A stretch of 64,000 nt of DNA, taken from assembly GCA_963965975.1 (NCBI GenBank), contig OZ014419.1, positions 3,313,677 to 3,377,676 of the forward strand. The letters are read 5' to 3'. How positions within the stretch are numbered: the first letter of the stretch is position 1; each line of letters starts with the position of its first letter. The notes under the pieces were generated by a model. The model was not told where the DNA came from, made no database searches, and worked only from the letters and a program-made list of their open reading frames with translations. Both the position numbers and the translations under genes were made by a program. Shown in pieces: positions 3,945-17,960 of the stretch. The stretch comes from Xestospongia bergquistia. Taxonomy: Eukaryota; Porifera; Demospongiae; Haplosclerida; Petrosiidae.

Positions 3945-6760
3945 AGTTAAACATAGCTACGAGGTATGGTGAAACTTTATCCATCTAAGTACCATTGGGC
4001 AACTTAACTGACAGCATTATTGGACATGTAAATATAAAAGTGGTGGTTTTTAACACATGGGTGGACACATTAACAGTCTAGGAGGCCAAGTTGATTGATA
4101 GTAGCACCTGAATTAACTGCCTCAGTTATAGCACTGTAACCCAGAAGTGGTCAGTCACTGTAACAAAGTCTCTTGGTTTAATATATGGAAGAATACGTCG
4201 TAATAGAGAATATACCTAATACAATAATTACATGTTATAATATACACGCATATGTATGTGATAATTGGATTTTTAATGGAAGTTATGGTACAGGAGATAA
4301 ACTGCAAAATAAATAAACAGCTAAATACAGTGGTAAATGAATGAATAAATTGATGGATAGATGAAGGAACAAGAGGGACTACTCATGCAACATTGCAGTA
4401 TATCTGCTTTCTTACTTGAAGTTTAATTCCAGCAGAAGCACTGTGTAGAAGAGAGATGAGATCTTGTATTAACAGAATCTCTGTTCTTCTCTTTCTTTGG
4501 ATTGAGTGATAGACAATAGGAGACCACCAAATATCTGAATGTATAGATGGATAGATAGGTAAGTGAATAAAATTATATGAATGAATAGATGGTTGCCATT
4601 GGATGGATGAATGAATGATGCAACAGTACATCAATTTTCCTTACCCATGAAGTCAATAATCTAATTAATCTAAGTATCTCAATTTTACACTCTTTTTGCA
4701 TAGCAACAGTAGTAGTTGAACAGGCATAGTAGCAGGTTCATCAGCTATTTCAACTTGTCTACCTCGTATCTCAAAAGTGTACAACTTTGTGCTGTTCATC
4801 AACTTCAGGTACTATGACAGTCTTCCAACCATTATGAATAGTAACCAACTTACACCATAATTAGCAATTAAAAAGCATTTACAGTAGATGGAAATATTCA
4901 GGCTGTCTTTGTCAGGTCTAATAGAGGGAGATAACAATTTTACATGTTTTTATATGATAGTAGATAAAAAAAACTAAATACTTATCTACATCTCTCTCTT
5001 TGTCTACTTATCTACAAATCCATTCCTCTGTTTAAAGTCTAAATCAATCTATCTATCAATCTACCAATCCATCCATCAATTTACCCACCCATCCATACAT
5101 CTATTTATCCATTCTTACTCCAGAGTCCTTTGGTTAGCAATATGAATGGAGGCTGCAAATAGCTTGACTACTTTATGTCATAGTAATAGAATAAGGTTTA
5201 TCATTATCACACATTCTTAATGAGATTTTCAGAAGGCTGTATCATCATGGTACATGTACATGCAGACAGAAGAACCATCTGTTGAGCTACAGAACTAAGA
5301 AGTAACTAGAGAGAGAAAGAGAGAGACAGAGAGGAGAGAAAGAAAGAGACAGACAGACAGACAGACAGAGTATTGTAAAGAATTAGGTGATATCATTACC
5401 TCTTGAACAGCAGCTAGAACAATTCCCATATCAGCTTTTTCAGTATCATTACGATAATAACTAACAGGTAATTAATTCTTCTATTGAAAAAGGAGAGGTC
5501 AATCAAAGTACATTAGTCAATGGTAGCACATGGTACATGCAGACAATAGTCTGGCTCTCTTTATTTCACTGACCAGGATATGGAAGGTTAAAATCTTCAG
5601 TGAGGATTATACCACTGCACACAGCACCCAAAGTAACTAACTCTTTCTCCAACAGAGACAAACACTTAAGAGAACAAACAATAGTGACATTTGTATTATG
5701 ATCATATGATTCTCATATGACATCTGATCATGATCACATGACTCTCATATGACTATCACCTGTTTGTCTATCTCTTGATCATTCTTAACCAATAAGCTGA
5801 CATTTGATGATATAATGATTGGATTTCTCTAAATTAAATAATATTATATAGATTAATGGGATAAATGGATGAATGGCTAGATGGATGGCTGAATGAACAG
5901 ATAGATGGACAAATGGATGGATGGTTATATGAATGGATGGAGAGTGTTTGAATGAATGGGATAAACTGAGAGGTGAGGAAACAGATCCTTTTAGTGCTAC
6001 ATGTAGTTCAGGAATCAGGATATACCTGGTATAAGAACCAGTCTAGCAGGAATGTCTAGTCCAAATTGAAATCAGAATATAGACTGTCCCAATTAATATC
6101 AATCATACAACAGTCTCTGTAGTGGGTGGATCTTCACTATCACCGGCTTTCTTATGTAGAATTAACAAACTGGCCAGTTGTCTTCTTGCACAAAACTACA
6201 TTTAGGTTCAAATTCCAGACTTATCTACTGAACCTGGTCTGGAAATTGGACTCTGAAATGTGAGGCTGAGGTTTGTTTGCAATGATAGTAAGATTCAACT
6301 AAAACATAATGAGTTAGTTTAGCATCTAAATAGCCATTTGTTTCCCCAAGAAGATTTTTAAGTTCTTATACACTTGAAGATACAACAGAAAGTGTACATT
6401 GTACCATATCCAATATTGATAATGATGACTAAATAAAGTAAGGACAAAGTACATTAGTAATTGATGGATGGATGGACAGATGAATAAATGAATGAATGAA
6501 CAGGTCACAGACTTATGAATGGATGGATTAAATGATGAATGGATGAGAGGTATGTTACAGATGAACAGATGGGCAAACAGATACAATTTCAACAGTCTCT
6601 ACTGTTGGTCCACTACTGAGTACACACTCAAAAAACCAAACTATAAAATCTAATAACATTGACATCATGTTGACACTGAACTGGACAATGTTTTAAGAAC
6701 TACTTGAAGGACTATAATATCACATGTAATTATATAATATACATGTACATGTACATATTA
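3945..6760 (-). pseudogene. Broken PHR-family ubiquitin ligase fragment, copy A
   Basis: This segment is an inverted copy of sequence on the plus strand further right. On the minus strand, 6,760 down to 5,390 matches 16,090-17,110 (block X), and 5,390 down to 3,945 matches about 11,640-13,330 (block Y). Conserved pieces are visible in translation, for example EKADMGIVLAAVQEV near 5,400-5,450. I assign it to the MYCBP2/Highwire/RPM-1 gene because the matching plus-strand blocks lead directly into that family's unmistakable C-terminus. The frames are short and stop-laden, with spacer rich in GATG/CATC tetranucleotide repeats, so it looks like decayed exons and introns and not a working gene. 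The C-terminal exons are absent from this copy. Confidence 0.65.
5040..5110. repeat. Imperfect CATC/ATCT simple repeat
   Basis: This is a degenerate tetranucleotide tract (CTATCTAT, CATCCATC and related). Similar GATG/CATC tracts recur throughout the PHR debris, for example near 4,540-4,620, 5,860-5,940, 6,460-6,550, 11,460-11,560, 12,410-12,470 and 15,240-15,310. They probably belong to the introns copied along with the gene pieces. Confidence 0.7.
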
Positions 6761-7506
6761 TGTGATTGTCATCTGGCCTTGAATAAAGAAAATTTGTAAC
6801 TGGTCCTGTTTTGTGGATACCACTCACGATTACCTGTTGAATACAGTGTAAAAATCCTCCCCCCTGGGTCCTGAAATACTCATTTCTCCCTCAGAGCCAA
6901 GGGTAAAAGGACCAAAAATAATTTGAGTTATATAGATCACTTCTGTTCCAGTTTCAAGGGTTCTGGGAACATTAAATTGACAAAGTTGCTGTTTATATAA
7001 TAATTAATCAAATTATCCTTTGTGCAATCCTATAGTTGTGTCATCCTATAGAAGTTAACCATAGCAATGATTAATGAAAAGTATCCATAGTAATTATCAT
7101 GATCATTAATTTTGTATCAGTTGTAATCACTTTGCAAGAATGAATTAATTGTTGTCATGGTAACTACACTGAATGTGTATAAGAACTATCCCCTGAGCCA
7201 CTGAACACACCAAATCTGATCAACAGGACAGACTTCTTTACTGAAACACAACATCAGTCACAGATCATTACATTACCTGGTACCCTGAAAGTATTCTAAA
7301 TCATTTCTGTATGCATGACTGAGAATTACATGGATGTTATCTGAAATATTCTAATAATATTGATATAAGAATATCATCTACTTTTATACACACCAATATA
7401 TATAAAACATTATCTGAAATGATATATTGGAAAATCCTCAACAATGCTTCTCAATGTGAACTTGTAAACAATATAAACCAGTGGCTAATAATAAGGTGGA
7501 ACAGTC
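6761..7506. other. AT-rich stretch without recognisable gene
   Basis: I find no coding signal or structured repeat here beyond short AT-rich low-complexity runs. It lies between copy A of the PHR debris and the 24-bp minisatellite. Confidence 0.4.
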
Positions 7507-8205
7507 GTGATGGTGGCCTATCGTCTCTGGGAGAAAGGGGTCTATCGTGCCTTGGAGAAGGTGGCCTACTGTCGCTGGGAGAAAGGGTCATATTGTGACT
7601 TGGAGGTGGCCTATCGTCGTTGGGAGAAGGGGGGCTTATTGTTCATGGGAGAATGTGGCCTATCGTCGCTGGGAAAAAGGGGCCTAGTGTTGCTGGGAGA
7701 AGGGGCCTATCGTCTCTGGGAGAAGGTGGCCTATCGTGGCTGGGAGAAATGAAGCGTATTGTTGCTGGCAGAAGGGGGCCTATTGTGCCTTGGAGAAGGT
7801 GGCCTATCGTCGCCAAGAGAATGGATGCCTATTGTGCCTGGGAAAAGGTGGCCCATCGTCGCTGGGAGAAGGTGGCCTATCTTCGCTGGGAGTAGGGGGG
7901 CCTATTGTGCCAGGGAGAAGGTGGCCTATTGTGCCTGGGAGAAGGTGGCCTATCGTCGCTGGGAGAAGGGGGCACATTGTGACCTGGATAAGGTGGCCTA
8001 TCGTCACTGGGAGGCTCATTGTGCATGGGTGAAGGCGGGCTATCGTCGCTGGGAGAAGGGAGCCTATCGTCGCTGGGATAAGGGGGCGTATTGTGCCTGT
8101 GAGAAGGTGGCTTATCGTCGCTAAGAGGAGGGAGGCCTCGGAGAAGGAGGCCCATCGTCGTTAGCAGAAAGGGGCCTATTGTGCTTGGAAGAAGGTGGCC
8201 TATCG
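7507..8205. repeat. 24-bp minisatellite (GGCCTATCGTCGCTGGGAGAAGGT-like unit)
   Basis: About 29 diverged copies of a 24-bp unit run through this block; a consensus unit begins GGCCTATCGTCGCTGGGA. Because 24 is a multiple of three, several frames on both strands stay open and translate as 8-residue repeats (VAYRRWEK on the plus strand, PPSPSDDR-like on the minus). This is a by-product of the period, not evidence of a protein: no start context or splice signals frame it, and indels break the frames. It abuts the telomere-like tract and is probably subtelomere-type satellite DNA. Confidence 0.9.
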
Positions 8206-17158: not shown

Positions 17159-17160
17159 CC
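17102..17160. repeat. (CT)n microsatellite at a rearrangement joint
   Basis: A near-pure CT run of about 55 bp lies here. The left side is block X, whose natural continuation is block Y (as in copy A, where a GA/CT tract sits at the same place, 5,310-5,385). Instead the sequence jumps to C-terminal exons starting after CATGCACACAG, so block Y has been deleted at this simple repeat. Confidence 0.85.
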
Positions 17161-17169
17161 TCCTTTCCT

Positions 17170-17960
17170 CATGCACACAGTTTTGGCTATGTTTTGCTGC
17201 TTTGTGTGTCATTGATGAAGAACATACTGTTGCTATCTCCTCAGGACAAGGGGTAGGACAATATGGCATACCTCAGATGAAGGTATGCTTGAAGAAGAGA
17301 GAATTATTTATAACAGCATTATTCTTGTGCTGTTAGCCTCTATGTAATAATTATGGATGATGGTGAAGATAAGGCTCTTATATTAAGTAATCATTGTGGT
17401 AACTTGTGTGGAGAATGTGATCATATACTACATTGTCACAAGCATACTTATAGCTAGTGATAATGACCTCCACTTCTATTCAGATATTCAAAGAAGAAAG
17501 TTGATCTTCATGAAGGGTATGGTTTTATTAAACTCAAATTAAATACACTGTAGGAAGTAAGAAAATACAATATAAATATTCATTGATAATCACCATACCA
17601 GCATATGTGTACATCCTAAAGACCCCATTATGTTATGGCAACTAATTGACATTAATTGATTGATAATTATCAAAGCGACAGTATCCATGAGAACATTGCC
17701 TACTTATATTATAAGTGTAGGTTAAGGTGCCTGTAGGTTCTTACCAATAATACTGGTCTGTTAGCTACTGGTATTAGTAATGTTTATGGTGATCTTGAGT
17801 GTCAAGAAAGAGCTTGTTTAAATGGAAGGTGGGTGTTGTCATCTTAAGTGCAATACCCATGAAGACATGGGAGATACTTCTTTTACTCCACAAGAGAGAT
17901 GACTACAAGTTATGATTTCATTGTCAGTGTTGTCACAATGCTCACAGTAAGAAGTGGTCT
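17170..17960 (+). pseudogene. Second, more decayed copy of PHR C-terminal exons (copy D part 2)
   Basis: This repeats the exons seen at 14,000-14,950: FWLCFAALCVIDEEH at about 17,180-17,225, a CNNYG-type zinc-binding exon at about 17,340-17,450, LHEGYGFIKL near 17,510, and fragments near 17,720-17,830. Deletions and stops are heavier than in copy C; the LHEGYG exon loses its second half and ends in a stop near 17,550. It joins directly to block X across the CT microsatellite, lacking block Y. Confidence 0.7.

Follow-up and report, generated by a model that had tools for sequence, protein, structure and literature searches.

How does a stretch of DNA beside ribosomal RNA (rRNA) genes come to hold several broken and rearranged pieces of one giant ubiquitin-ligase gene, and does an intact copy of that gene remain elsewhere in the genome? 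The question is raised by 64,000 nucleotides of the sponge Xestospongia bergquistia (hereafter the window, meaning that whole stretch), which sit on contig OZ014419.1 (C9; 7,485,090 bases) of a 146.46 Mb genome in 21 contigs. A preliminary description had recognized in it at least four scrambled partial copies of a PHR (MYCBP2/Highwire) gene, in both orientations, and had treated them as the broken remains, still in place, of a gene with a single copy. The observation is confirmed here, both by comparison of the window with itself and by mapping to a second contig, C3; the interpretation is partly supported. We propose, with a probability of roughly 70%, that a source gene on C3 gave rise to the copies as fragments that keep introns and lack function, and that these fragments were absorbed into the ribosomal DNA (rDNA) spacers of C9 and were amplified and scrambled together with them.

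Between positions 3758 and 18167, 11,659 of 14,410 bases align by BLASTN (E <= 1e-10) to a single PHR locus on C3, and no base in the rest of the window does so at that threshold. The alignments resolve at least four partial copies, two per orientation, with pieces ~70-94% like C3. Copy A (3758..7264, minus strand in the sense of the gene) corresponds to C3:9428486-9440111, exons as well as introns, with internal jumps; at one of these, between 5326 and 5337, C3:9432109-9437947 is left out. Copy B, also on the minus strand, consists of a main piece (8332-10259; C3:9430739-9437758, with jumps) and an extra piece (10655-10854; C3:9440423-9440616). Copy C (~11338..15912, plus strand) covers C3:9440493-9425493 with jumps, and in copy D (15974..18167, plus strand) C3:9439711-9437947 and C3:9428770-9427481 meet in a (TC)n run found with Tandem Repeats Finder (TRF); copy D also holds a small inverted piece at 17813-17909. 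The block layout first described stood in its positions, with two amendments: copy A extends to ~7264, where it takes in part of the second PHR domain, and 15593-15912, previously read as an upstream PHR exon, matches the start of the gene which follows the PHR gene on C3, so that copy C ends there and copy D begins at 15974. That next gene has a weak Death-domain match (21.4 bits, against a Pfam cut-off of 22.6). Copies A and D have a common joint at C3:9437947, adjoining (AG)n/(TC)n runs, a hint that simple repeats played a part in the rearrangement.

Comparison of the window with itself by BLASTN recovered the same blocks. Inverted matches pair 5319-5825 with 17158-16662 (82%), 4598-5154 with 12910-12372 (78%), 8345-8790 with 13052-12650 (73%) and 6198-6888 with 16618-15974 (71%), and a direct match pairs 13994-14715 with 17174-17814 (74%). 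Altogether 24 self-matches longer than 80 bp lie within 3758-18167, and none appeared in any of 20 dinucleotide-preserving shuffles. Since the matches to C3 cross introns and enter the neighbouring gene, the window copies are DNA-level duplicates; an origin as retrocopies is ruled out on the same grounds.

The presumed source lies on the minus strand of C3 at ~9.425-9.446 Mb, where open frames succeed one another in the expected order. Four PF08005 (PHR-domain) matches over the cut-off, in two regions, fall within C3:9439662-9443267, and a profile search of the genome gave no PHR-domain match over the cut-off outside C3. The RING exon matches human MYCBP2 (5o6c_A) with E=2.7e-24 over 59 residues, general RING Pfam models remaining under their own cut-offs, and RCC1-like repeats were recognized by eye. 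From these open frames we chose 14 test blocks, the openness of which is therefore by construction. Because frames and domains stand in order we take the C3 gene as an intact-looking PHR gene of the MYCBP2/Highwire type, with tandem PHR domains and a C-terminal RING E3 region, as far as can be read from its sequence. It shares PHR domains and the RING exon with the family of MYCBP2, Highwire and RPM-1, of which the C9 copies are fragments only. An intact-looking gene does thus remain elsewhere, as the preliminary description had asked.

The source is accompanied by further tandem C-terminal PHR copies at C3 9.39-9.42 Mb, two of which match it at 91-99% across blocks s-y and show a single frameshift (block v, one copy). 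As a separate observation, C3:9392557-9431639 holds recent tandem copies of the C-terminal half of PHR together with the beginning of the gene that follows; most of this sequence is open, and the tandem copies might yield truncated RING-bearing proteins. C4 holds a young PHR copy, 96-99.5% identical over the tested blocks and carrying one frameshift (block w), with a second piece at 98%; C5 has two diverged pieces (72-86% to C3). With an intact-looking source, tandem C-terminal copies beside it and pieces on C4 and C5, the idea that one lone gene was fragmented where it stood does not hold. A shorter query also matched C4 and C5, which rules out that all copies lie on C9.

The copies on C9 are decayed. 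Twelve window stretches cover 60% or more of a tested exon block; frameshifts or stops interrupt 11 of them, which bears out the decay by stops noted earlier, and C9-wide 103 of 110 distinct block copies carry lesions. Functional copies on C9 are not supported. When the window is compared with 11 C9 loci that overlap in part, the differences, added up by hand, number 225 at first, 153 at second and 148 at third codon positions, and there is no third-position excess between C9 copies. Exon-derived substitutions against these loci (1.7-6.7%) are similar to those of non-exon parts (2.0-4.1% in 10 loci, 7.4% in one). Read from the sequence, the lesions and substitution figures of the C9 copies are the pattern of neutral decay. 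With introns kept, disabling changes present and coding constraint absent, the window copies fit duplicated (unprocessed) pseudogenes. A single functional gene spliced continuously through them, for which we found nothing in favour, is virtually inconceivable given their opposite orientations, repeated exons, frameshifts and stops.

Where, then, do these fragments lie? Rfam models, at their gathering thresholds, place a 5.8S rRNA gene at 100-256 and an 18S rRNA gene at 470-2460, both on the minus strand, and the PHR copies occupy the probable upstream spacer of this unit (100..2460). We detected 15 rDNA matches over C9 as a whole. The PHR matches on C9, merged within 20 kb, form ~20 clusters totalling at least 140.9 kb, the window being one of them, which span from 2.34 Mb to 0.35 kb from the contig end. 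The cluster count was made from most of the listed rows of two window-copy searches, with overlapping and some short rows omitted and three intervals added by hand (two minus-strand copies of the window and one array stretch counted whole); copy counts are lower bounds, since the genome DNA search omitted the window's own match for some queries. Eleven of the 20 clusters lie no more than 5 kb from rDNA, whereas 5000 random placements put 0.9 clusters there on average and never more than 6, and 11 of the 15 rDNA matches have a PHR cluster within 5 kb.

PHR-derived DNA is found between 18S units as well. Near the window the units at 3.256 and 3.282 Mb share an orientation and that at 3.314 Mb, the window's own, is opposite; PHR-derived repeats lie between the first and second and again between the second and third. 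One array there has a 1,791-bp unit that joins five to six separate gene pieces and is repeated head-to-tail in 6.2 copies, 99% alike; in arrangement and identity it is tandem (satellite) DNA. An N-free 1.8-kb stretch (L064) passes from an array unit (92%) through a mosaic equal to window 4843-3707 (96.6%) into the 18S-upstream spacer, and the 3.256-Mb unit carries the same mosaic at 98.4%. In the window's cluster each of the three 18S units is thus directly preceded by a PHR-derived segment, 96.6-98.4% alike and homogenized between the units. Three other convergent 18S pairs, each sampled over 1 kb at its middle, likewise gave PHR-derived DNA, in two cases as ~295-bp repeats of the segment 9714-10006 of the window. 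By its position, PHR-derived DNA between 18S units is probably rDNA intergenic spacer.

All five adjacent 18S pairs on C9 (2.33-5.97 Mb) are convergent; by coordinates, the PHR matches flanking such pairs are mirror-symmetric in at least three of the five. Convergent pairs could also stem from misassembly, with collapsed contigs of rRNA genes, duplicated haplotypes or misjoins set along C9; the palindromes would then be unreal, as would some of the copies counted. In two of the pairs the two sides score equally, some stretches by rRNA genes read N (not necessarily scaffold gaps), and no telomere repeat occurs in the first or last 500 bases of the contig, all of which could point to such an assembly artefact. 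The copies, however, are unlike each other in order, content and identity and so do not represent a single locus repeated by error, and both the window and L064 pass from PHR-derived DNA into 18S-upstream spacer. We regard an artefact as unlikely.

The age of the material is mixed. Copies inside the window are 71-82% alike, and the whole window block recurs on C9 at 3.51, 4.19 and 4.71 Mb with 93-96% identity, so that the description of the duplication as moderately recent covers two different ages. Three small midpoint-rooted trees (17, 17 and 24 distinct sequences) all pair window copies with copies elsewhere on C9, and in two of them C3 (and C4) stand apart from the C9 copies.

Dispersal over 5 Mb in both orientations would also be expected if a gene-capturing transposon, for example a Helitron, had taken up PHR pieces and scattered them. 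An inverted repeat common to several loci would fit this too; at 10336-11454, it is partly PHR-derived and pairs 10336-10609 with 11338-11065 (96%) and 10610-10727 with 11454-11337 (99%). The four window copies nevertheless end at different C3 positions, the clusters concentrate at rDNA, and no transposase gene was noticed, without a dedicated search, in 3.7-18.4 kb. Such an element is very unlikely to be the cause. The arms of the repeat in the window are 96.4% alike, against 93.8-98.9% between loci, and a hairpin maintained by gene conversion was rejected on this basis.

The same inverted repeat, together with the presence of both orientations, might suggest a regulatory role, the copies producing small or antisense RNAs that target the source gene, as at a Stellate-like gene-derived silencing locus, or acting as rRNA-gene spacer elements. 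That different spacers have amplified different PHR pieces (the 1.79-kb mosaic, the ~295-bp unit) would be in keeping with this; perhaps rRNA clusters recruited PHR pieces separately because these serve the spacer, or antisense and small RNAs from inverted pieces tune the source E3 gene, which would link rDNA chromatin to the E3 by way of gene-derived spacers. The similarity of the arms inside one locus does not exceed that found from locus to locus, and exon- and intron-derived parts are similarly diverged. To the regulatory role, and to the recruitment or tuning built upon it, we assign only a slim chance.

We therefore return to fragments absorbed by rDNA spacers, for which the following course of events may be envisaged. 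The 3' half of the PHR gene, with the start of the next gene, would have been transferred as genomic DNA to the rRNA-gene region of C9. There it would have become intergenic spacer, being cut, inverted and joined into mosaics, some of which would have been amplified locally into tandem units. Finally the PHR-derived spacer would have spread with the rRNA genes until it lay at ~20 sites along C9; unequal exchange together with gene conversion presumably drove this. The order of these steps, recombination as their motor and the lack of function of the copies are what we infer from the arrangement and decay described above.

Several results weigh against this reading. For nine of the 20 clusters the nearest rDNA match is more than 5 kb away, and for three of these more than 1 Mb. 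A 701-base query gave 74 matches, of which 65 were on C9, 3 on C3, 2 on C4 and 4 on C5; with pieces on C4 and C5 as well, the spread was not solely with rDNA. One of the three trees, midpoint-rooted like the others, puts C3 and C4 inside the C9 copies. The term spacer rests on the positions of 18S and 5.8S genes, in a setting where some adjoining stretches read N. Lastly, seven of the 110 C9 block copies are free of lesions, found only in blocks a (1/9), d (2/6) and t (4/11); as these blocks are short, we take such copies as chance.

Other features of the window were also recorded. The spacer upstream of the 18S gene includes 112-bp tandem repeats (3227..3694, 4.2 copies, TRF). Between copies A and B, TRF detected a 24/48-bp minisatellite (7512-8213) and a degenerate TTTAGGG-like tract (8211-8333), and a segment that covers both reappears together with PHR pieces at five further places on C9. 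A second multi-copy family occupies 20146-24550; pieces of it have dozens of counterparts (80-98%) on C9, from 1.95 to 4.2 Mb. Every one of the 99 matches listed falls on C9, the window's own not among them, and a frame at 23723-24196 within it has an IPT/TIG domain. Plus-strand frames at 37427-45057 with MIR and RIH (IP3-receptor-type) domains probably belong to a normal gene, and 44-54 kb has no long paralogue among the matches listed. Farther on are a perfect 97-bp tandem duplication (55092-55286, TRF) and, on the minus strand, a 337-amino-acid frame (59230-60243) with a von Willebrand A match under the Pfam cut-off.

Among known systems the closest is the primate rDNA intergenic spacer, which carries a cdc27 pseudogene (PMC6281188, PMC11373518). 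As far as the available parts of those papers go, both cases place a piece of a protein-gene pseudogene inside an rDNA spacer; unlike the one pseudogene per unit in primates, the sponge has several scrambled, intron-bearing fragments of one gene, in both orientations and partly tandem, which account for most of the DNA seen on the spacer side. The two are the same in kind and different in degree. Human acrocentric short arms have segmental duplications around the nucleolar organizers. There, too, duplicated DNA is exchanged and rearranged beside rDNA, whereas the sponge material comes mainly from one identifiable gene and lies mostly on one contig with many rDNA places. B chromosomes carry gene-derived sequences (PMC5732253) and, in what is available of that report, resemble C9 in gathering pieces of ordinary genes that have decayed on one chromosome; unlike a B chromosome, C9 bears detected rRNA genes and single-copy-looking stretches (window 44-54 kb), and nothing marks it as a B. 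In the open-licence literature, mostly titles and the beginnings of abstracts, we found no report of an rDNA spacer derived largely from one scrambled gene, and, judged by title, no paper listed in a search on MYCBP2 pseudogenes in sponges dealt with the animals themselves.

A pseudogene in an rDNA spacer is thus known; a spacer built largely from a single scrambled gene would be a new form of this. Taken as a whole the case is probably real, its parts ordinary and their combination unusual. For annotation it presents a hazard, since the many PHR pseudo-exons on C9 could be miscalled as genes. Because the source gene persists, the proposed origin of this spacer from a protein gene can be read stepwise, and the differently aged copies beside facing rRNA units form a record of how DNA is taken up, scrambled and spread at rRNA-gene regions.

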